Source of the DNA: Hericium rajendrae
Lineage: Eukaryota > Basidiomycota > Agaricomycetes > Russulales > Hericiaceae
NCBI GenBank assembly: GCA_033439255.1
Contig: CM065892.1
Location: 868,001 to 932,000 of the forward strand
DNA: 64,000 nt
Direction of reading: 5' to 3'
Shown here: one piece after another, positions 9,041 to 53,150 of the stretch
Layout of the letters: the number at the start of each line of letters is the position of its first letter
Numbering within the stretch: position 1 is the stretch's first letter
The notes under the pieces: model-generated
What the model was told of the DNA's origin: nothing
Seen by the model: the letters and a program-made list of their open reading frames with translations, nothing else
Database searches by the model: none
Made by a program: the position numbers and the translations under genes

Positions 9041-9570
9041 CGTTCGCGAACTAGCTCGTTAGTCGTCGATAAAGGACAAGCGGAGTCGCCTCACTTCAGT
9101 CCAAACGGTATGGATGGGTACATCCCTTGGCTCTGCCTTACTTCGCCTCGCAGCAACACTAGCTTCGACGGAGGGCTCGTGAAAGAACAGCACAAGTTGA
9201 GGTTACCAGGTCTCGAGACAAAAGAGTAGCCGTGGAAGAGAAAGATCCTGATAAGAGTCTCAGAATGCCTGAGCGTGGAGACGAAGACTGTGCGTACCAA
9301 GCAAGGAGACAGACGAAAACTTTGCCAGGTGGATTCGCCCGCCGAATCGCCCGGGACCACGGCACATAAAGCAGGATTTCATCGCACTCCGCGAATACGT
9401 GCATGGGTCCATACGCGCATGATTCCATACGCGCACGAGTTCAAACGCGCATAGCATGGAGGCAAAAGACGATGGAGAAGACGAGGGTTCGTACGCGCAT
9501 GGATCCATACGCGCACGATGCTCGACAACAACATTGGACTACAACCAAACACGGGCAAATACAGGGAAGA
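9041..9570 (-). repeat. Dispersed repeat family A, copy 1
   Basis: Reverse-complement copy of a repeat also found at 24590-24925 (-), 31845-32450 (+) and 51045-51690 (+). Shared landmarks are a block reading GGCGATTCGG followed by a GGCGAGCC-like sequence (here inverse-complemented near 9325-9355) and repeated CGCGCATG-type units near 9395-9520. It has no coding capacity that is conserved among copies. Ends are diverged, so limits are approximate. Confidence 0.7.
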
Positions 9571-10119: not shown

Positions 10120-12946
10120 ATGGATAACACGGATTCTTGTCAGAACGTCTCCAAGAATGGGATTTCGGAACCGGAGGAGTATGTTCAGGCCCATTCATGT
10201 AGCCAAAGGAGATTCCTACCAGGGTATCTGAAGACCCTGCCAAAATGCTTTGCATGCGAGACAAAGCGAAAGTGCTGCTTCCAAGGTGCCCAATATATGA
10301 ACACCAACAGTCTTCTTTACTCATGCGGCGTTCAGGCTTTCGTCGAGTGATAAGAATAGGCCAGGAAAATAAGTTGGCTGTTAGATTCCCTGCAGTAGCC
10401 ACTGCGCCCGATTTCCCTCGCTTATTTAGTCGGATGTTTTCTGGAACCGACGTGGAGGATAAAATGGTGCGTAATTGGTGACCACGTCGATTCGCCCTTA
10501 ACCAACAGTATCGGAACGGGTCTCAGCGCACTTGTGCACGTATCCTTTACCCACGATTGGTTGCAGAGAAGACTCATCGCAATTCAGCGGAGCTCGTGTA
10601 TCGACCACGGGAGCTCGATTACCGTGTTATTTGTGGTATTTTCCTTACTTCGCTCGATTGAATACGTTGAACTATATCTTGTGTTTTCAGATGTTTGTTC
10701 GACGTCCTTGTTTGACCGTACGTGGATGTGCCTATTATGTGGGCGAGAATTTTGTCATGGCTGCTTTAACGATATGGTCTCGGTACAGTTTTTCAGTGCT
10801 TTACGTCTGTTCTCGATTTTTAACCCATGACATAGGGCCACCCTGCCGCAAAAGTCTGTTCCAAGGATGAATCCACAAAGCACACCACATCGTCATTTGT
10901 ACCAGTTAGTCGGTTTGAGCAGAAGGAATTAGAGGATGCCATAATCGATATGGGGAATATATTGCAGCAGGCTGGAACTCAGACAGTGTAGGCCTTACAA
11001 TCATTCGTTGCTGTCGTTTCTGACAGGGCCTTTCTTAGTCCTCTTCGTCAACATGATGCCCCCGAAAATGTCCCGCGGATGCATGTGGATGCCTGTTCTG
11101 AGACGTGTTTTCAATCATATCTGTCTCGAGGCATACCTATGGTGATTTCAGCCGTGAACGCGGACATGGGAATGCAAGGTGGATGGACTCCATCAGGCTT
11201 CATTCAGCGGTATGGCGAAAAAAAGGTTGTCATCGTAAACTCGGAAACTGGGAAAACAAAGTCTTCAACAGTGAAGAATTTCTTTGAAAAATTTGGCCAG
11301 CAGAAAGAATCTGATGAAATATGGAAACTGAAGGTACGTAATTGATAGTATCTACGCTATGACGCTGAACGATCATCAGGATTGGCCTCCGCAAAAGGCC
11401 TTCAAACAGACTTTCCCGGAGTATTTTGACTCTTTTGATCTCTCAGTCCCGTTCGGAAATTATACAAGATGCAACGGGATCTTTAACCTAGCATCGCACT
11501 TTCCTTTCAACAGTCTGGCACCAGATCTTGGTAAGTCTTGGTATGACTTGCGCCCGTTACCATGATCGACTGTCATTCAGGGCCAAAGATGTATAACGCC
11601 TATGCTTCTATACAAGACGACGTCCATCATGGTTCCACCAGATTGCATATGGACATAACCGACGCAGTAAATATCATGCCATTTGCCGCTAATACGTCTA
11701 CTGGGACGCCCGGAACGGCTCTTTGGCACATCTTTCTTGCAGAGCATGCTTCCACTCTTCGAGTGTATATGCACAATGAACTCGGTCTAGATGGTCCTGC
11801 AGACCCGATCCATTCGCAGCAGACGTATTTGAAACCTTCTGATCTGCAATGCCTTCAAAACAAATACGGCATACGTCCATACATGATCTACCAAGAAGTC
11901 GGTGATGCGATCATTATACCTGCCGGTTGTCCTCATCAGGTGTGTAGTGTTATATGGTTCCTTCTGTGCACGCAGGCTGAGTTATCCAAGGTCAGCAACC
12001 AGGCGGATGCTATCAAAGTCGCATGCGATTTTGTAAGCCAGGAGAGAATCGCCACGACGGAACGTCTAATCGAGGAACTGCGGAAACAAAGAATGGCACA
12101 GTCAGGGGATGACGTGCTGCAACTGTATACTATGCTATGGTATGCATGGTGCAATCTCTCACAACTCCGAAAGGACATCGTCGACCATAAAATCGGGGAA
12201 GGAGCAATGCCGGACACGTCCGCAGGTAGGATCGAATCGTTCTGACCGATTCCTGCCGCTGACAGTAATTTTGGTATTGGAGGCTCTGCGGCTATGGCAG
12301 CACTGAGCGCTGAGCTTCCTGAATCTAACTACATGGAGGATATATCCACAGGTAGGATCGAATCGCTACCGAATGCTGCCGCTGACGCTGACTTTCGACC
12401 ATATTGGAGGCTCTGCGGCTATGGCAGCGATGAGCGACGAGCTACCTGAATCTAATTATACGGAGGATACATCCACAGGTAGGATCGGATCGTTCTGATC
12501 GAGTTCTGCCGCTGACAGTAATTTTTGATATTGGAGGCTCTGCGGCTACGGCAGCGATGAGCGTTGAACTTCCTGGGATTGGTTATATGGGGGGCTTGCA
12601 GACGGCCAATGAAATATGCGCGATCAGGTTGCCTGGCAAAAATGCAGCTAAGAATAGAGCCTTGAAGGTCGCTAAAGCTACTTCTCAGATCCAGAAAAAG
12701 GCTTCCTTTGACCGTCCGTGTCCAGTGAGGACATGTACTCGACATTTAAAGGGCAATAACGGCGTCTTGGATCATTTGTAAGTTTCTGTATCAGAATCGC
12801 ACGTACAGCATATTGACATCAGAAGCAGACAATCCACTCATGCAGCTGTCGTGCGTTACAATGACACGCAAAGAAAGTACCTGCTTAATCTGAAGCGCGC
12901 TGAATTTGAAGCAGTGATATGGCAGTACTTGTGCCTTCCGCTCTGA
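10120..12946 (+). CDS. KDM3/JMJD1-like JmjC-domain protein with repeated C-terminal exons
   Basis: Exon order follows the KDM3 (JHDM2) plan. A Cys-rich N-terminus (CFACETKRKCC) is followed by a zinc finger like that of JMJD1 proteins: CDVCSTSLF...W.CLLCG..FCHGC near 10690-10780. The JmjC region spans about 11020-12100, with WTPSGFIQRYG, DWPPQKAFK, FNLASHFP and DLGPKMYNAY. The iron ligands are present: LHMD (His and acidic residue, about 11645) and CPH (about 11930), and the family motif GDAIIIPAGCPHQV is intact, interrupted by a 51-bp intron. The likely role is a nuclear histone H3K9 demethylase or related hydroxylase. Past 12225 come two duplicated 69-nt exons and a final part with a degenerate C2H2 finger (CPVRTC...LDHL...H), stop at 12944-12946. 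One early junction near 10275 is unclear and could be a frameshift or short intron. Confidence 0.8.
12226..12778 (+). repeat. 127-bp exon-plus-intron tandem repeat in the JmjC gene
   Basis: Three units, each an intron (12226-12282, 12352-12409, 12479-12536) followed by an exon that begins GCTCTGCGGCT. The first two exons are exactly 69 nt (12283-12351, 12410-12478); the third starts at 12537 and runs on into the C-terminus. Exon starts are 127 bp apart. All boundaries are phase 1, so adding units keeps the frame. The repeated peptide reads SAAMAA.S.ELPESNY.EDTST. Confidence 0.85.
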
Positions 12947-22394: not shown

Positions 22395-23147
22395 TTGTCT
22401 TTCACAGCCGATACTCGTACATTCTCGTATGTGAGTTGCAGGTTCATCTCTCATGTACCATGTCAATGTAATGCCAGATCTCAGCCCATGCCGATATGCA
22501 GCCCTTCCTCCCAGGTCGAGCGACTGATTCCAACCCTCGAGGAAGAACTGCAGGCGGCGAGATCTCAACGTGGATAATTTCATCTCATTGTCTAGCCTTC
22601 TTATCTAACATTATCTCTTGCTATAGTCGATAACCTTCTTTTCCTTATCCCGGAAGTTCGTCGCGAAAATAGCAAAAAGTTGGACCTCGACGACGGTCTT
22701 CAAGACATGTACCATGAGATCATGCACATCCAGGATGCAGTCGGCCACATCGAACTCACCTCCCTTGACATCAAGAACTCTCTTGCTCCTATCGAGGACG
22801 CCTTCAAGATGCGCCTCTCTGCCATCGAGAATTCTCTCGCTCCGATCGAAGACACCCTCAGGACACGTCTTCCTGCCATCGAGAATTCTATCGTCCTTAT
22901 TGAAGGCATCCACCAGACACGCATTCCTGCCATCGAGCAAGGTCTCGCAAATGTTGCCCTTGACTCCAACCTCAACGACACATTGCGTACGGAAGTGCTA
23001 TGTATGAGGCGCTCTATCGAGGGTTTGAAAGAGACACAGGAATTTCACGGAAGGCAGATAAAGAGGCAAGAGTTACATTTCTGGGTTTGCGAGTTGATTT
23101 TGCTCGTTATATTCATTCCTTTCGCTCAGCTATTTCTCCTTGCTTAG
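22395..23147 (+). CDS. Tail-anchored coiled-coil protein with 18-residue repeats
   Basis: The first exon is uncertain but includes ERLIPTLEEELQAARSQ (about 22520-22575). After an intron ending CTATAG near 22625 the frame runs without break to 23147. It encodes a long helical segment with three tandem 18-residue units (22776-22829, 22830-22883, 22884-22937) of the type NSLAPIEDTLRTRLPAIE, then more heptad-like helix. The last 24 residues are strongly hydrophobic (VCELILLVIFIPFAQLFLLA), right before the stop. This layout fits a tail-anchored membrane protein facing the cytosol. No family is recognised. Confidence 0.65.
22776..22937 (+). repeat. 54-bp in-frame tandem repeat, three units
   Basis: Three adjacent 54-bp units each encode 18 residues ending in PAIE or SAIE. 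Because 54 is a multiple of 3 the coiled coil can lengthen without frameshift. Confidence 0.85.
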
Positions 23148-24589: not shown

Positions 24590-24925
24590 ACAGATCCTGA
24601 TAGATAAGCGTTAGGATGCATGGAGATGAAGGGCCATGCGTACCGTGCAAGGCGATAGACGAAGGTTACGCCTAGAGGACTCGCCCTCCGAATCGCCTAG
24701 GACCGCGACAACTGGAACAGGATCTTATCACGCTCCAGGGGAGTACGCGCATGATTCCATACGTGCATGAGTTCATACGCACACAGCATGGAGGCGAGGA
24801 AGACGACCGGTGCGTACGCGCATGGGTCCATACGTGTACGATGCGTATGGCCAGACAGTGGATTGTAAATTACTGGACGATTTCAATTCGTTCACCAAAC
24901 ACATCCAAGCAACGTGTCACATGGT
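24590..24925 (-). repeat. Dispersed repeat family A, copy 2
   Basis: Inverse copy of the family also at 9041, 31845 and 51045. The right end is TTCACCAAACACATCCAAGC followed by AACGTGTCAC, the inverse of the left end of the plus-strand copies. CGCATG-type units lie at 24745-24845. Confidence 0.75.
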
Positions 24926-32946: not shown

Positions 32947-35900
32947 TCAGCATATGTATCGGGTCTTACGCCTTAGGAATGTAGTCAATTCTATAGAAAT
33001 TGTCAGACACGCGCTAATGATGGGGTGATACTTTTCAAGACGCACCCTGTCTAGTGATAGAACAGTCAATAGCTCACATTCCGACGAGGCGTCGCGGTAC
33101 GGACAACTTGCGAAATGACTAGAGATGTCTGCTGCTTTAATCACGAAAACGGCATCTTCCAAATTATTAATGAAAAGAGACGCGCCAAGCAGCGGCCATT
33201 GCTTGTATGGATCGAAGATTGTTCCGCCCTGAGGAAGTTCGCGGTATGCTTTGACGGCAAGAAAGTATTCAGTCAACAGGGTGCCGTCAGATCCTGGATG
33301 CTCGTGTGAAAAAATCTGTTGTATCCGGCCAGCACGGTATGTGCTACCCAAGCTTGATCGAAATAGAATCTGGCTGTCCCCAACGGAGGTTCGTTCTGTC
33401 GCGTAGCTGATGCCTTGTTTGTCGATTCGCGAACCATGGACTGCGGAGGGATCTAGCATGAATGAATTTTGTGAGGCAGGAGGACTGTTCATCGCGGAGT
33501 AGATAGCATGAGTAGAATCCCCGTTCAATCGATCGACGAGACCTAGATACATGTCACGATTCAAGTCCACCGGATCGTTGGAGGTGGTTTTCATAGAGAA
33601 CACAGTTTCTGATTCAGGCTCTTCGCAGTCCAAAGCTCGCAAGTCGTTTAGGAGTGTTCCTCGAAAAGTTTCACCAAAATGTTTGTCAAAGAGCGTTCGA
33701 AACTGCCCGAGAATAGATCCGAGAGTACTGCTCAGGATTAGAGCCTTCAAATTTGCGGAGCGACAAAATGATTTGAAGAATGTCACTTCCATCTGGCCTA
33801 AGGGACGCATCCTACTGTCAGGGCCAGTACGGGTTTGATAGGGCAGAGCGAACTCACCAGGCCGAAAGTTCGTCCGTAAACGTTGCATAAAACCATTATA
33901 ACGCTCGAAGGGAAAGGACCACCACCCATGGACTGGACCAAAAAGCTCAAGGCATTCGATCAGATGCAAAGAAAGGTGGTTGTTGACAACAATTGCTGCG
34001 TCTCCGAATAATTCTACGACAGACTTGGAATATCGATAGAAATGTTCTTGAACAATCTGTCTATGACACGTGGAAGATGATCGCATCGTTGCCCATCGCA
34101 CGCCGATAACAAGATCCAAGAAATTATCGAGCACACGCCGAGATCGAGCGGGTGTATCGGCACCGCCCCACAAACGTATCAAGGTGATAGGGAGGCTGAC
34201 AGTGCAAGCGCTACGCCACTGGTCCGCTTTGAGCCTCCCTTGACCAGGACTTCCAAAGTTCTTGGGTGTGCGGCCAATCCATGAAGGTACAATGGTATCG
34301 GCGATATCTTTCCAAACCTCTTGCAAGACAGATCTGTGTAATATCGCGATTTTCTCTTCTTGAATGGGGTTAGCAAAATCAAGAACTGGGTGAGGGTATG
34401 GCTGAGGGACAGCAAGTTCATCGTTCATATGCTGGCGACGCTAAAGTTGGCAGCAACTCGTCAATAACGCAACTTTTTCGGACCAAGAAAACACTCACCC
34501 AGTCTATTATAGCCTCAGCGATCGTTGCCTTCGTCATCGAGCGACTAGTCAAAGTAACACCATTCCGCAAAGCAAAAGCCATGAGGTATCCATGACGTGC
34601 GCTGGCAATCTTAGAGGCTTTCAACTGAAGAACTCCTTTTACGACCCGTGCGATATGCTCAACTTGCTCCCTTGGCGAGTGTGGTAAAGTTTTCTTCGAA
34701 CCTGACTCCTTAGCCTGTGAAGACATGTTCCAGATGTCCATGCAGTGATGACGCAGATCCCCAAGGAACAGATTGTGCATGGAGTCAAGGATAGCATATC
34801 GCGTCGGGTTCCAATAAGGCAAGCGAAGAAGCTCTGACCAACGTACGCCGTATAGCTCAAACTCTTTTTTTTGTTTTTCCTCAGTTGACGCATTCTTCCA
34901 GGCCGTGGCGCAGGCTACGTGCTCTTCCCAGGTGCGCCGTGGCCACGTCCAGAAGTCGAAATTGCACATGTTCTCTTTTAGCAACATGCAGAAAGAGCAG
35001 AATAGATTTCCCGAGTGGCCGGTAAATCCACCAGCTTTGCGAAGTGCGGGAAGATCTGCGACGAGTGGAATGAGGGCAGCTCGAACAATACGTCCAAGAG
35101 GATGTAACGATGTCTTGGAGAGATAAACGCCCGGTATCCAAAGGCGCAGTAAATCATCAACGAGAGGACGGAGAAGATGGTTGATCTGCATCAGCGATGG
35201 CTCCTTGGGACCAGGAATAACACCGACAAGGTACACGTTTTCAAGTCGATAGCGAATATGGCGAGGCAAGTTCATGCAGATCATGTAGATAGTGCCTACT
35301 GATGTGCTTGAGCTGGATGCCCTATTCCCATAAGGGTTGAACCAATCGACGAATAGGCTAAACCCCAGGCGACACTCTCCATCAGGGACGTTGAAAAAGG
35401 GTAGACCATCAGGGCCCTTGAAGTCCTTGAAGGCTGTCCCATCCCAGATATCGTTCTGAAGGTCCGGCAAAGTATCGGCCAGCCTTCCGCTGCGTAAGGA
35501 ATCTTCTATTCCTGGCCTTGCGAAAAGCCTCGCAAGCCATGAGTCCATTGGTTGGTACATGTAGGTCCGAATCGGAGTCTGTCCCAGGCCACTGGACTTT
35601 CCATGAACAAGCTTACCCCCGCATGGCTCGCTGGACGGTGTCTGACGAAATTGACAGATAGTCGGGTAATGAGGGTCTTTGGGATTTTTCGGAGCATAGC
35701 AACTGAAGCACTTCTTACAGCAGACAAATTGAATCGCCTCCGGGTCTAGATTAAATGTCTGCAACGCCGTTCGAATATCCAAGGGCCATTGATTGAGCAA
35801 CGTGATCAACCTCGACGGCTGGATCCCCACGCCTAAAGCACCTAGAAAAGCACATGTTGCGGCGACAACCATTTGGAAAGCCGTGAGCAAGAAGTGCGAA

Positions 35901-36982
35901 GACTCGTGCGAAACATTGTGAAGTAGATACATGACCGCCGCTGTTAAAAGAGAAAGGAGCAATGGGGCGGGAATACTAGAAATGCTGTCGTTGAAATATC
36001 TGGCTGATGAATGTTATTCATCAGCAAGGCTTGAGCAAACAGGAGGAATAGATGGCTTACACGAGTCATATACGCGGGGAATGCGATCGTCGTGAGGTAA
36101 CAGGAATCCTTGTTCCAGTTTCTTCATGCGCCACTGTCCTGCGACCCAGGAAGACATGGACTGATAATATCCATCGATGTCCGCAATTAAAGAGTGCGCG
36201 TCCTCTTGAATTCGAACCCCTGCCAGGTTAGAGGCGCCGAGCTCTTGGGCAAGGGTCCTCACGTTGATGATGCTACTTTGGTGATTGAGAAAAGCACTGT
36301 TGTCAGCACGGACGCAAGTGTTGATGGTGAGGCGCGGCATTGGATCATCTGCAGATCGGGGATTCCGATGAAATACAATCGGAGGGAACGAGAAAGACGA
36401 CTTGAGAGCGGTAAACTTCTGGAGGTACGTCCGTAACTCTTTTGCAAGCGGCGGTTCCGGGCCAGTAGATGAGGAAGGATCTAGACAGGACCGGGGTGAA
36501 AATAAATCCCAGCGCACTGCCGACTAGATGCTTACAATTGATGACAGGGGGTTCTATCGAAGACATTGAACTTGGTAGGGCAGTTCCACTGGCACTGGCA
36601 TGAGGGGATGTGGTGTCCCCGTTTTCAAATTCTTCGGTGACACAAATGAGTCGTGAGCAAGGAGAATAATCACCGTCTTATCGTTCTCTTTACCTGTGAC
36701 ATTGTTAACCACGTCGGACATGACGACATCCTCTTGCGTAGACTGACGAGCCATAATCGTTGCGTCCGACATCGGGACATCAGACATGGTGACACCCATA
36801 ATGGCCTGGGCGATGTCTCGCCCGTCATTTTCTAGGACCCATTCACGTTCTTGCCGCTGATGCTGTTTCCACTCCCTCATAGTCAAGTAGCTCCCGCTTA
36901 CTATTTCGTTCGTGTCCGGATCGGATGAGAACATGCTAAAGCAGGATTTGGCGTGACATCGACATAGCTGATTTCGAGCCAT
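32947..36982 (-). CDS. Tnp2-type (CACTA/EnSpm-like) transposase
   Basis: A four-exon gene of roughly 1,250 residues, open throughout. Exon 1 (36982-about 36574) starts MARNQLCRCHAKSCF with a CxC-type N-terminus. Exon 2 runs about 36520-36063, exon 3 35999-34499 and exon 4 34440-32947. The intron at 34441-34498 has a consensus GTGAGT donor; the one at 36000-36062 has GTGTAAG. Exon 3 carries the family core: CCKKCFSCY, LFVDWFNPYGN, GPKEPSLMQI...PLVDDLLRLW.PGVY, DLPALRKAGGFTGH, CSFC and LPYWNPTRY..LDSMHNLF. Exon 4 has HLSLHLIECLELFGPVHGWW and FPFERYNG, the usual C-terminal block. No stop or frameshift was found, so it may be active. It catalyses cut-and-paste transposition in the nucleus. Confidence 0.88.
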
Positions 36983-46764: not shown

Positions 46765-48371
46765 ATGACTGAGCGCGATCTGCAACCATACAAGCTGCAA
46801 TTCACTCTAGATGGTCATACTCGTCCCATCAACTGCTTGAAGTTCTCGGGCGATGGATGTTACTTGGCCAGCGGCAGTACGTGTCGTGGTAACAAAGCGA
46901 TTTCATGCACTGACTGCCCCAACCTGGTGCTAGGTGATGATGGTCATGTCCGTGTATATGCTTTACACAATGGTAAACTTGTTAAGGATTTTAACCCTCA
47001 ACAAGGGGCTATCCAGGCTCTTCAGTGGATACATCGTCCTCAACTCTCGCCGGACTTATTTCTTATCGTGGGCGGGCTTAATGGGACGATCCAACTCTGG
47101 CGTAAGCCTAGAGATGAGGTCGGTCATTCTGGTGGTAAAATTTTCTTTGTTTACTCAACCACCTTGGGAAGAATACCGTTTTATTTCTTTCCATCAAATC
47201 TGTTACCGAATACCAGATTGAAGACATGGCAGTAGAAGAATCTCAAGGCCTCGTAGCTGTGGTTGCCGGCGGTCGGTTGTTCCTTCATACACTCGATCTG
47301 GATAATCAAGGTATGTCCCTCAATTAATGTAAATGCATATGTCTCTCATAAAGTCGTTGTCAGCTCCATTTAGACGTGTCTTATCTGAACCTGCAGCTGA
47401 TCTTGACGCACGGCGTGCGTTAGCTAGATCTGTATGTTTCTATGACGAAGGCCGTGTGGTTATGGTTGGTTATCTTGATTCGAAAGAAATGTCCGTAAAT
47501 CTTTCACTTTCATCCAAGGCGGTCGACTTATCCATGGGTGACACAGAATCTGTTGGTCCATCTCACCTTGGAAACAGGTCGAAAGGCATGTTTTGACTAC
47601 AAAGATGTGCGGCATCTCCCCTTCAATACTGTCCGACCTAACGAGCTCATGCTACACGGTCAGCGGGAGATTATCCTGGTCACCTTCGACGCGCAATCTT
47701 CTTATTTGGAACATGACGGATGGCGTAGATGTGTATGAAATGACTCGTGGGAATGATCTCATTCCAAAGGGAAAGCTGCTTGTCCGTCTCAAAAGCTACT
47801 TCCCGCATGATATGGCATTTGCCCAGCAAGATAGTCTTGCGGTCTTTGGTACAGATAAGGGAGAGGTGCAAATATGGAATGTGAAAGCTCAGGCATCACT
47901 TCAGTCATTGCGTCATGGACCAGGTAATAGTTCGATGGCATACCGTTGAAATTTCAGATTCATTTACGCATACTTCATATGACAGCTTCGCAGATCATCC
48001 AAGTTGTTGACGTGAGTACTATCTTTGCTTTGACATGATTGTTGCTCAGACACGTAGTCTCATTCACCGCAAGATGGTTTATACCGCCTTGCTAGTGCTT
48101 CTGCTAACCAGGGTGATAATCATCCTTTGGTGAAAGTATGGTGCACTGTAAGCGTCTTTCACTTTTCTCGAATTTAATACCTTCTGTCCTGCTGATATAC
48201 GTACTGGCCATTGTATAGGTGTCACAACCATCGCCTGCATTTTCTTGGAAAGGCCGTCAACTTTTTGGGTACTGCCTGATTGCGAGCTCCGTAGTACTAC
48301 TTGCGGTCTTGACGAGTGTCGTGGGCCAGATGTCAGATACCGCGCAATTGCTAGTCAGGCGTACAGGATGA
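46765..48371 (+). CDS. WD40-repeat protein with C-terminal transmembrane anchor (paralogue 2)
   Basis: Starts MTERDLQPYKLQFTLDGHTR. Intron 1 begins at a GTACGTG donor after LASG and ends CTAG before DDGHVRVYALHNGKL. Further blades: LIVGGLNGTIQLWRKP, EDMAVEESQGLVAVVAGGRL, CFYDEGRVVMVGYLDSKE, HLTLETGRKACFDYKD, SPSTRNLLIWNMTDGVDVYE, SLAVFGTDKGEVQIWNVKAQ, and YRLASASANQGDNHPLVKVW. The final exon (after an intron ending at 48219) gives a single hydrophobic helix (GYCLIASSVVLLAVLTSVV) and a short basic tail with stop at 48371. Blade order and intron placement parallel the minus-strand gene at 3418-5230. It looks intact. A membrane-anchored propeller facing the cytosol is likely; partner unknown. 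Confidence 0.78.
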
Positions 48372-49161
48372 CGCATAATATCGAAGCTGGTACAAGTATA
48401 AATATACAGTTCTGCCGCATATCACGCTTAGTCATTTTCAGCCGAGGATGTTGTGCGCGTGCGAGTACATATTATGGATGACTTTCAGTGGCCTTAAATC
48501 TATGGTATGCTATTCCGGAGGCCATTTCAAACGCCTCGCTCACGTCCAAAATAATCTCCTCGTCCAATCAGGTCGCACAAATCAGTGAACTTTGAATCTA
48601 GATGAAAATTAGAACGTATGATATCATAGAATGAGAATCAGGCCGCGGAAAATCGTCTCATGTATCGTTAGGGGAAAAAGTTAGCGCTCTTTGTGGTACG
48701 CCGGGCCCCGGGGAGGTAATGCTCACGAACCAAGCTCCTATCTTGTGAGAGCTTGTTCGTCCTCTGTGGCTTAAAATTGGTCTACGACTCACGAACCTCC
48801 CTAGATCGAACATCAAACGGACATCGGAACTGAACATTGTCCACTTTGAACGCGCCCCGCAGTGTACGCCCCTATATACTCTTCTCCTTTCCCTTCCGAT
48901 AACCGCTGATCCGATCAATTGTTGAGCGATTCCAGCACGATTCTCCGCACGATTCTCTGCTGCATATACAGGGATATAGGTATAGATACAAGGATTAGAA
49001 ATAATTCAACTCATTATGATTATTTGACGCGGTCACGTGGACGTGTTGGCAGCACAGGCCCGCCTGTGCTTCGTGCTTTGTACAGACTGAGAGCCTACCT
49101 CGTGTCCATGAAAGACCATTACCATGTCCAATCGGAAGGCAACAATCCTGGTGCGTGAAAC
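48372..49161. other. Intergenic, no gene supported
   Basis: No coherent frame. The right end carries the promoter of the next gene. Confidence 0.45.
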
Positions 49162-49169
49162 TATATAAG
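49162..49169 (+). promoter_or_regulatory. TATA box of the exon-array gene
   Basis: TATATAAG, 79 bp before the ATG at 49248, followed by a pyrimidine-rich stretch (CTTCTCTCATTCACCTCC) suited to transcription start. Confidence 0.6.
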
Positions 49170-49247
49170 GCTTCTCTCATTCACCTCCTGCCAGTCTCCT
49201 CCAACGCTAACTTGTATTCTTTCCTGAACGCCTGTACCATCTCAACT

Positions 49248-50718
49248 ATGAGTTCTTCTCACTCTACTAGTGGCTCCAATTCCAGGGGAGACGACGAACT
49301 GAGTGCCACATTTCACGCATTGATGGTCTCTATTGTCTTATCCAGGGTCCTCGAGGTCAGTCTCTGTTCCTTTGCTCACAGACAATACTACCATTAATCA
49401 TTTCTCAGCGTTTGGAAAGGCTTGGAGTCGAGCAAAGCGCCGCGGAATCTGCAGATGCAGAGCTACCTACTCATGAGGTACGTCATTTCTCCTTTCATAT
49501 GGACTTGCGTCTCATCAAACATTTCCCAGCATCACGACGGACAAGACGTCGCATTGCAGGATGCCGACGTTGCATTGGAGATGGACGCCATGGCGCTTTC
49601 ATCTTTGACAGACGCCGAGCTACCTGCTCACGAGGTACGCCATTGCTCCTTTCTCCGTTTAAGTATGGGCTTGCTCTCATCAAGCATTTCCTAGCATCAC
49701 GACGGACAAGAGGTCGCATTGCAGATCACCGAAGCTGCATTGGAGACGGACGCCATTGCGCTTCCATATGTGACAGACACCGAGCTGCCTGCTCATGAGG
49801 TACGCCACTGCTCCTTTCATACGGGCTTGCGTCTCATCAAACATTTCCCAGCATCATGACGGACAAGACGTCGCATTGCAGGATGCCGACGTTGCATTGG
49901 AGATGGACGCCATGGCGCTTTCATCTGTGACAGACACCGAGCTACTTGATCATGAGGTACGCCATTGCTCCTTTCTCCGTTTAAGTATGGGCTTGCTCTC
50001 ATCAAGCATTTCCTAGCGTCACGACGGACAAGAGGTCGCATTGCAGATCACCGAAGCTGCACTGGAGACGGACGCCATGGCACTTCCATCTGTGACAGAC
50101 ACTGAGCAACGTGCTCAGGAAGCTTTCCTGGGATCGAGCAAGCGTCAGAAACGCTGCACAACTGGTGAAAATGAAGAGCACCTGCTTAAGAAGGCGAAGG
50201 TTAATCCCATCGGGCATGACATCATCACTGGAGATGACATCCGAGCTTTCTGCCCTAAGGTCCGCAGAACTCCTCGTAGCAATACTGCGCGGAGGGCCTG
50301 CGAGGTCCATACTGGCATTCGTATTCGCTATCCGGTTGCTGTAAGCTCGAGCGTTGTTGACTCGAGCGCTGCTGGGGATTCGAGCTTCTCGGTTGCCACA
50401 GCCCAAATCGATGGAGATGGGGACATGTCGGATACCGACAGCTTTGTGACAGCTCCCGAGGCTGATCCACGGGTAGGTCATCGACATTGCTTCGGAATTT
50501 GCTACTCATTGATTTTAACGGGTCCCCCGAAGGCTAATCCCGTAGAGGGAGATGGCGGCATGGACAGGGTTGAAGATCTACAGGATCGAGTCAAGGACTT
50601 AGCTGAAAGGATGAGCCGCATTGAGGACGTACTGGTAAACCTCTGTTCGGCCCCATCCAGGTTCCGACACTCACTTCATGACCACCTGCAGTCATCTATG
50701 CTCACGCGCTCGCCTTGA
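49248..50718 (+). CDS. Acidic nuclear-type protein built from a duplicated exon array
   Basis: Exons: 49248-49355, 49409-49477, 49530-49634, 49695-49799, 49852-49956, 50017-50472 and, after a probable 60-bp intron, 50533-50718; about 377 residues. Every boundary is phase 0. Exons 3, 4, 5 and the start of exon 6 are repeats of one 35-residue unit that begins HHDGQ(D/E)VALQ and ends with ELPAHE or a variant. After the repeats come basic motifs (SSKRQKRC, LLKKAKVN) that look like nuclear localisation signals, an acidic Ser-rich stretch (DGDGDMSDTDSF) and a C-terminal coiled coil (VEDLQDRVKDLAERMSRIED). Exon 1 also ends in helix that continues in exon 2 (LERLGVEQ). No known domain. It could be a coiled-coil nuclear adaptor; function unknown. 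Confidence 0.8.
49478..50121 (+). repeat. 322-bp higher-order repeat of two intron-exon units (A-B-A-B)
   Basis: Unit A: 52-bp intron plus 105-bp exon (49478-49634; 49800-49956). Unit B: 60-bp intron plus 105-bp exon (49635-49799; 49957-50121). A and A' match closely, as do B and B', while A and B differ more. The offset between copies is exactly 322 bp (49530 to 49852; 49695 to 50017). So a monomer was first doubled and diverged, and the dimer was then doubled recently. Confidence 0.92.
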
Positions 50719-51044
50719 AGCAAGGAGCACCAATGAAGCGCAAGCGTGCAAGTGGAGTTGATTCTCACTAGCGGAGGATCATCCGTCGCGTGGGTCCTGT
50801 CGTCCTGATGGCGTTGTAAATGTGATGGATGGATGCGGTCAACGCTATAGCACGAATAAGACGAATTGATTGTACACTTTTTCCACGTCGTCCCCTTGTC
50901 ACTTCCCACCTTTACCGTACTGATTCTTCATATATATTTGTACTCGTTCTAAACCCATTGCTTCTCCCGTCAGACAGAATCCCGTCAGACAGAACGCCCA
51001 TTGCCCATTGTACTAGACTCACCTCACGGCGGCGGAAGCACGTG
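50719..51044. other. Intergenic, no gene supported
   Basis: Probably the 3' untranslated region and terminator of the preceding gene. A 14-bp direct duplication (CCGTCAGACAGAA) is seen at about 50968-50995. Confidence 0.45.
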
Positions 51045-51690
51045 ACATGTTGCTTGGTTGTGTTTGGCGAACAATTCGAGATCGTCCGGCAATCTGTCGT
51101 TCAATTTCTTGTCGTCCGTCGAGCTGGCTGCATCGTGCGCGTATGAACCCATGCGCGTACGCACTGGCCGTCTTCCTCACTTCCATGCTGTGTGCGTATG
51201 AGCTCATGCGCGTATGGACTCATGCGCGTATGGACTCATGCGCGTATGGACTCATGCGCGTATGGACTCATGCGCGTATGGACCGATGCGCGTATTCCTC
51301 CGGAGCGTGATAAAATCCTGTTCCATGTGTCGTGGTCCTAGGCGATTCGGAGGGCGAGCCCACCAGGCGTAGCTTTCGTCTCACCTTGCACGGTACGTAT
51401 AGGCTCTCGCCTCCAGGCTATGCGTGCTGATGCTTATCGGGACCTGTCATGTTATCGTCGCCGCTCGACTCTGTTCCCCGCCTTTTTATCCAGCGAGCAG
51501 TTGGTCCAACCCCGACATGAGCAGCACTGCAATGGAGATTGTAGCTGGGTTGTCCCGACTGCCATGTTGAGCGTGATCACCGTGCTCCGGTGTGTCTTAT
51601 TTCAGATATGATCTGGCACTCATTGTGCGCTGCTTGCCACCAGGAACAACCCGTGTGTACTTGACCAATGAGCGTGCGCACTGCGCGCGC
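51045..51690 (+). repeat. Dispersed repeat family A, copy 4, with 16-bp minisatellite
   Basis: The most complete copy. It begins TGTTGCTTGGTTGTGTTTGG, and at about 51203-51290 carries five or six tandem 16-bp units CATGCGCGTATGGACT. Then follow the GGCGATTCGGAGGGCGAGCC block (51340), the CAATGAGCGT block (51668) and a GC-rich end. Matching copies are at 9041, 24590 and 31845; a terminus-only piece is at 56835-56890. Confidence 0.85.
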
Positions 51691-53150
51691 TCGTAAGAAT
51701 GGAGAGGAGGAGAATTCTGCGCCCGGGCAACACGTGCGGAGATATGAGCGTGGAAGGCGTACCATCGAGTGAGACGTGTGCTGGGACTGCTCGTCTGCAT
51801 GCATCAGGCCATATATGCTCTTCAAGGTACGACAACGCGGTAATCTATGAATGTGTCGACTGTTTTCAATCTTACTCTCGCTGTGTTCTGATGCTCTAGG
51901 AAAATTTTGTGCGTGCAAGCATAACCGGCCCTGGAGTGACAATGTGCGGCCGCTGGTCGTATCCACTGTGAATAGCGGCGTCGAGCACTGCGGTTCTGTC
52001 CCTGCAAGACGCCGCATGGCATTTCATCGATGCATATGATATGATGCCTGCCCGAAAGCGCATCGGCTGCGCCGTGACGGTTCTCGACCGCTTGGTGATG
52101 AGTACCCTTATTGAACGCGACGACGCTGACGATGCACTTGCACAGGTATGTTCCCACTGACTCTCATAGACGACATCGACTGCATGTCTCGCGCAAATGC
52201 TGTGCATCTCCTGACTCCCCAGCTCTCCGGATCACGACATTCTCAAACAACTTGGCCACGTGGTATTAGTCTCGCTGGACATCACAGGCCGCTGCGCGGC
52301 GCATTTGATAGTGATACCCGGTAGTCCTCCTTCTACGCTTCGAAACATCGACTTACCGTGTCACAGATAATTCGATCATGGCGCAAAACGGAGCGCGAAG
52401 CTCGCCGTGGACACTGCCTTGCGGCTGAGTAGCAAGGCTTCTTGAAGAGCCTGCCATCCGAAACATACCATGTGCACTAACTCGAACACGAGCTGACGTG
52501 CTCACCAGATCAAATCACGAAGACCATAGCGAGTTTGCTCATCGTGCGTGCGCCGCTGCTTGAGTCGCTTGTATACTCGGCGCTCATGTATATCCCGGGC
52601 GCGGGCCGGATTTGTTCGCAACAAATGTCCCCCGCCTGCAGAAGCTTATGCTTGTGAATGCCAAGCTCCCGCTGCTGTCATCATCCCATGAACAGGCGTG
52701 ACATGACTCTATCTCTTCAGCCGTGATGAGTAATTGGGCTTTCTGGACCGGACATTCGACCTGGAGACACCCTGATTCTGGCGTCACATGAACTGTCTAG
52801 ATGGTCCCGACGGCTGGACTGTCTCAGACGGTCTTTCTGGACTATTCAGACTGTTCGGACGGTGTAGAATGGTTGGAATGGTTCCAGAACCCGAGAACCC
52901 TCCGAGTCCAACGTTGTGGACAGACCGAAGGGAAGAAGGAGACAGGAATACGTGACAAACCCGAGCATGCTGATCCATCGGTCACGATCGCGATAGATCT
53001 GCAACGCGGTGCAAACAAATGCAAAGGCGCGCTGCTCAGGTTCGTTGACCGCTGTTCTATACCACACATTACCCGTTCTTCCTCGCTGACCATTTTAATT
53101 TCTGCTCTCCTATTCTCGATGTCCCACCATTCACTCTGCACTTTGATGTG
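51691..53150. other. Possible decayed gene pieces, unidentified
   Basis: A plus-strand stretch at 52010-52145 reads AWHFIDAYDMMPARKRIG and LDRLVMSTLIERDDADDALA and ends at a donor-like GTATGT. Another at about 52510-52600 reads ITKTIASLLIVRAPLLESLV. They look like one helical-repeat protein in pieces, but I could not name it. Around 52800-52880 the words GACGG and GGACT recur as short near-repeats. Confidence 0.3.

Follow-up and report, generated by a model that had tools for sequence, protein, structure and literature searches.

Multiplication of whole intron–exon units within a gene is already in print for basidiomycetes. In Cryptococcus neoformans, Sharpton and colleagues described CNN00420, a single-copy basidiomycete gene with tandem repeats of ca. 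107 nt that span exon ends and a full intron; introns 3–5 of the gene are identical, splicing is supported by ESTs, and the repeat number differs between strains (PMC2395259). In Agaricus bisporus, the gene beta-fg2, a paralogue of a known gene at the mating-type locus, owes its 14 introns to a multiplied 5′ intron–exon unit, and its N-terminal half comprises a 20-residue motif in 7.5 copies (PMC8305134). Larger blocks are repeated within human genes: blocks of eight exons in the triplicate region of nebulin (PMC9109913) and multi-exon blocks of a segmental duplication in titin (PMC9142044), the copy number being variable in both. Finally, tandem duplication of genomic DNA is described as a means of intron gain, adding introns to a gene (PMC4974935).

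The gene analysed here is located at 49248–50718 of a 64-kb stretch of Hericium rajendrae DNA (C15:868001–932000, on a contig of 1.04 Mb), which is referred to below as the window. Like CNN00420, it has no second copy that could be found, and it contains a tandem unit made of a full intron with flanking exon sequence, the introns of the units being about as alike as the exons. Unlike those of CNN00420, its units have diverged further and follow a two-level order (ABAB), and the array is known from the sequence of one genome. Judged by that sequence, the locus shares three features of the CNN00420 type, namely an intron-containing unit, alike introns and a reading frame that is kept. As in beta-fg2, a gene was enlarged by multiplication of an intron–exon unit; the gene and the motif are others, and beta-fg2 is a mating-type-locus paralogue. 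The likeness to nebulin and titin is in the repetition of blocks within a gene, and the differences are in the larger blocks and in the nature of those genes, which are animal muscle genes. In contrast to intron gain by tandem genomic duplication, an existing intron was copied here. The mechanism is not new. Novelty is in the locus, in its two-level structure and in the probable presence of a second, unrelated array within the same 64 kb.

Repeat anatomy of the 49248–50718 gene

The repeated part of the gene consists of four units, each made of an intron (52, 60, 52 and 60 bp) followed by 105 nt of exon, with the fourth exon running on into a longer one (Table 1). These coordinates and lengths agree with an earlier, sequence-only reading of the window, which had described a gene enlarged by an A-B-A-B array of whole intron–exon units; our analysis bears out this anatomy, with two-step tandem copying as the best reading. 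The 322-bp period that had been proposed is free of gaps: TRF reported 322 bp × 2.0 with 94% match and 0% indels, along with 165 bp × 3.9 with 83% match. When offsets of 100–1000 were scanned over the whole window, 322 was the sole offset at which ungapped identity over 300 bp exceeded 60% (0.947 at 49460), which excludes a chance origin of the repeat.

Table 1. Predicted features of the gene at 49248–50718 and position of the second array (window coordinates)
Feature	Position	Strand	Remarks
Gene	49248–50718	+	ATG at 49248, stop at 50718; from reading of 48000–53000
TATA-like box (TATATAA)	49162–49168	+	80 bp upstream of ATG; read in sequence; putative function
Exon 1, 36 residues	49248–49355	+	presumed start codon; open frame, phase 0 end
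Intron 1 (53 nt)	49356–49408	+	GT..AG; possibly distant relative of array introns
Exon 2, 23 residues	49409–49477	+	last ~25 nt homologous to 3′ ends of repeat exons
Intron 2, unit A (52 nt)	49478–49529	+	GTACG..CCCAG; branch-like CTCAT starts 19 nt before 3′ end
Exon 3, unit A, 35 residues	49530–49634	+	105 nt
Intron 3, unit B (60 nt)	49635–49694	+	in-frame TAG at its end if retained
Exon 4, unit B, 35 residues	49695–49799	+	105 nt
Intron 4, unit A′ (52 nt)	49800–49851	+	47/52 identical to intron 2
Exon 5, unit A′	49852–49956	+	105 nt; 99/105 identical to exon 3
Intron 5, unit B′ (60 nt)	49957–50016	+	60/60 identical to intron 3
Exon 6: unit B′ (50017–50121) and unique 3′ gene part	50017–50718	+	stop at 50718
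Possible extra 60-nt intron in exon 6 (uncertain)	50473–50532	+	GT..AG, multiple of 3
Probable second intron–exon unit array, JmjC gene	12226–12610	+	unrelated to the array of 49248–50718

A and A′ are identical at 146/157 positions and B and B′ at 154/165 (ca. 93% in both cases). The near identity claimed earlier for these pairs therefore fits the B introns and is generous for the whole, the unit B′ stretch of exon 6 being identical to exon 4 at only 94/105 positions. With both pairs taken together, 5 of 112 intron sites and 17 of 210 exon sites differ (Fisher P 0.25), in line with the claim that the introns were copied as faithfully as the exons. Between A and B, 15 or 19 of 105 exon sites differ, as do 5 or 6 of 51 aligned intron sites, to which a 9-nt and a 1-nt indel have to be added. 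Homology begins not at the gene start but inside exon 2 (about 49452–49460), and it ends near 50121 in exon 6. The repeat unit contains a complete intron flanked by exon sequence. The beginning of exon 2 has no detectable relation to the unit (296 to 894 of 1000 shuffles scored as high), and no resemblance to units 1 and 2, the two that were tried, was found in exon 1 or in the C-terminal part. Since introns were copied together with exons, an origin via spliced RNA is disfavoured.

Short tandem repeats are a usual site of assembly errors, and the 322-bp repeat might be one of them. We consider this very improbable: the copies can be told apart at 27 of 344 sites, which speaks against a simple assembly echo, and the assembly is contiguous, with 19 contigs for 46.8 Mb.

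Predicted splicing, reading frame and encoded protein

The predicted exons are 108, 69, 105, 105, 105 and 702 nt long, all multiples of 3, and the introns (53, 52, 60, 52 and 60 nt) are all in phase 0, as the sequence-only reading had stated; every one of the four symmetric 105-nt exon units keeps the frame. The spliced coding sequence of 1194 nt encodes 397 residues followed by the stop, and it is open with or without the candidate intron in exon 6. Without splicing, stops are present in all three frames, and when introns 1–5 are retained singly, the first stop follows 49, 145, 113, 148 or 183 residues, respectively. GT and AG are present at the ends of all five introns; introns 2–5 share the start GTACG and a CTCAT that begins 19 nt before the 3′ end. 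From the frame and the splice sites we infer that the array introns would be spliced out. An automatic splice-frame test found two GT/AG solutions in the array; it also solved three of four nonsense signal pairs, some of these solutions spanning more units than GT/AG, and thus does not discriminate. In one of the two GT/AG solutions, the acceptor lies 30 nt deeper in each exon (introns of 82/90/82, exon of 75), and since the frame is kept there too, the exon borders could differ from those in Table 1.

In the model of intron gain by tandem genomic duplication, exon sequence reportedly becomes intron. The AG|GT context read where the unit introns have their donors would suit such an origin here, with an exon piece carrying AGGT being duplicated and then used as an intron. 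However, no similarity was seen between introns 2 and 3 on the one hand and exons 1, 2, 3 and 6 on the other: 271 (intron 2) and 216 (intron 3) of 300 shuffles attained the best local scores. That the duplication itself created the unit introns is hardly credible.

Intron 1 may be an old, decayed relative of the array introns. Its global alignment scores with introns 2, 3, 4 and 5 were reached by 2, 3, 0 and 3 of 448 controls, which were intron-like segments from the window. By local alignment it is less striking, with scores reached by 8 to 43 of 1000 shuffles and matched by 0 to 4 of 157 controls, and the relation is suggestive only. For the candidate sixth intron, 16, 119, 58 and 119 of the 448 controls scored as well against the array introns, and it is not clearly related to them.

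The array encodes 140 residues, 35 of them acidic and 2 basic. The C-terminal part contains the basic stretches KRQKR and KKAKV, which look NLS-like by eye. No Pfam family was found at the cut-off; a 377-residue version of the protein, with putative intron 6 removed, gave three sub-threshold matches (best E 0.027). In the 49000–51000 region, Rfam gave 0 matches at the gathering threshold. A DNA search of the 46.8-Mb genome (19 contigs) found no second copy of the gene, and a protein search of the same genome with E up to 10, which scores the best candidates only, found no paralogue, all six matches lying within this gene. Gene content and intron size point to a basidiomycete host.

Comparison of units yielded dN 0.165 and dS 0.138 for units 1/2, dN 0.050 and dS 0.093 for A/A′, and dN 0.079 and dS 0.234 for B/B′. 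Clear protein-level constraint was not seen between the units, and the coding frame was unremarkable in comparison with the other two. Since neither dN/dS nor the frame comparison reveals protein-level constraint, the repeat part may be a spacer tolerant of length change. That the repeat exons show no clear sign of purifying selection would also suit a minisatellite-like array, non-coding or pseudogenic, with unspliced introns, as would the absence of a paralogue and of an above-threshold domain in the searches above and the failure of the splice-frame test to discriminate. We nevertheless find this reading unlikely. The spliced frame is open for all 397 residues across five GT–AG introns, and introns of this size are usual in basidiomycetes; a TATA-like box is located 80 bp upstream; the frame is intact in all four units despite the 17 exon differences within A/A′ and B/B′; and retention of any intron breaks it.

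About 480 bp past the gene, at 51194–51295 (+), there is a 16-bp tandem repeat, GCGTATGGACTCATGC, in 6.4 copies. Repeats at 9395–9452 and 24744–24780 have the reverse complement of this repeat as their consensus. The exact 16-mer ATGCGCGTATGGACTC occurs four times in the genome, each time within the repeat at 51194–51295.

Order and relative age of the two proposed duplication steps

Alignment of the four units, which the sequence-only reading had proposed as a check, revealed 12 sites at which two units stand against the other two (3 in introns, 9 in exons). All of them group units 1+3 and 2+4, with 0 sites for the other groupings, and two intron indels agree with this grouping, so the ABAB order is well supported by the aligned sequences. 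Given these sites and indels, one unit was doubled to AB, the two diverged, and the AB block was then doubled. Divergence amounts to ca. 7% between the two AB copies and to 13–16% between A and B units. Judged by these values, the AB doubling would have about half the age of the A/B split, and the earlier description of the last step as recent is not borne out.

We consider it very probable that tandem duplication of intron-containing genomic DNA, first to A,B and then to AB,AB, lengthened the gene. A block of ca. 161 bp, comprising an exon end, an intron and an exon body, would have been duplicated first; A and B would then have accumulated substitutions together with the 9-nt and 1-nt intron indels, and the 322-bp AB pair would have been duplicated in one piece. 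The copies may have been produced by unequal crossing-over or slippage. It had been proposed that the introns alone could mediate unequal crossing-over; this claim is not upheld, since the exon parts of the unit exceed the introns in length and resemble each other about as much, and no breakpoint could be assigned to an intron. As a unit consists of one intron and a phase-0 exon of 105 nt, each copy should splice in frame and add 35 residues. The increment of 35 residues claimed earlier is correct for one unit (157 or 165 bp) but not for the last step, which added 70. The acidic-rich repeat residues would thereby be placed before the C-terminal part with its basic, NLS-like stretches.

The differences between the 322-bp copies are unevenly distributed, with 8 in the 253 bp inside (49504–49756) and 19 in the 91 bp at both edges, the borders having been picked after viewing the list of differences. 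A permutation test gave P 0.021 for the emptiest 100 bp and P 0.097 for the densest 43 bp. This edge-heavy pattern hints at conversion or repeated exchange within the array. An older and more fluid array, in which the unit number rose and fell and gene conversion homogenised the interior while the edges diverged, is therefore a possibility that we entertain with some reserve. It would also account for B introns that are fully identical next to B exons that are not, for the 3′-terminal 30 nt of the exons, where 0 sites favour the A/A′ and B/B′ pairing, and for intron 1 if that is a decayed relative. Such a history is not needed, however: the clustering is weak, and a single duplication followed by mutation under uneven constraint also fits. 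It is, moreover, compatible with the tandem duplication of intron-containing DNA that we favour, of which it would alter the history and not the kind.

A probable second array and a wider survey

The second array is found in a gene with a JmjC domain (PF02373, E 9.1e-9, residues 54–135 of the frame from 11547) and lies downstream of that domain, within one open frame. It consists of three introns (57, 58 and 58 nt; donor GTAGGATCG), two 69-nt exons in phase 1 set between them, and a further related stretch that continues into the last exon; a full unit adds 23 residues. Since the coding frame passes through all three DNA frames, the array would be open only through splicing. On the sequence, this model is probable and less certain than that of the 49248–50718 gene. 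Its acceptor, ATTGGAG, is atypical, an alternative solution has introns of 75 and 76 nt, and three of four nonsense signal pairs also gave solutions in the splice-frame test.

Four other loci of the genome match the JmjC stretch, and two of these also match the last exon of the gene (E 7e-4 and 2e-4). Within the 3.4–3.6 kb taken at each of the four, tblastn with the unit gave no match better than E 0.26, and TRF reported no array whose period exceeds 21 bp. As these loci show neither unit nor array nearby, the array is probably confined to this copy; it may, however, have been lost elsewhere.

Such arrays change protein length through DNA duplication in whole, always in-frame steps, with the introns carried along. 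Taken alone, the 49248–50718 locus is a further clean example, and the probable second array within 64 kb is the more interesting lead. The single cases in Cryptococcus and Agaricus cannot give the frequency or polymorphism of unit arrays; if two arrays per 64 kb were typical, this genome could serve to gauge both the frequency of events and unit-number polymorphism. With two unrelated arrays 37 kb apart, in phases 0 and 1, and one of them in a single JmjC copy, we tentatively suggest that this fungus might repeatedly, and across its genome, have gained protein length by copying whole intron–exon units.

TRF rows with a period of 90 or more were collected from the window (3 rows) and from 200 kb of contig 1 (400001–600000; 13 rows). 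In neither could the splice-frame test tell GT/AG from nonsense signals, so an array frequency cannot be derived from this survey, in which the two arrays of the window were the only ones read by hand. The contig 1 stretch is rich in ~158-bp arrays and may be a poor sample; six of its TRF rows have periods of 158–159 bp, with up to 9.9 copies and 89% match, and look satellite-like. Within the window, a 54-bp repeat (×3.1) at 22769–22937 (+) lies inside an open frame of 183 residues. Between the two arrays, an open frame at 34421–36013 (−) matches Transposase_21 (tnp2, PF02992, E 1.3e-14) and marks a DNA transposon.
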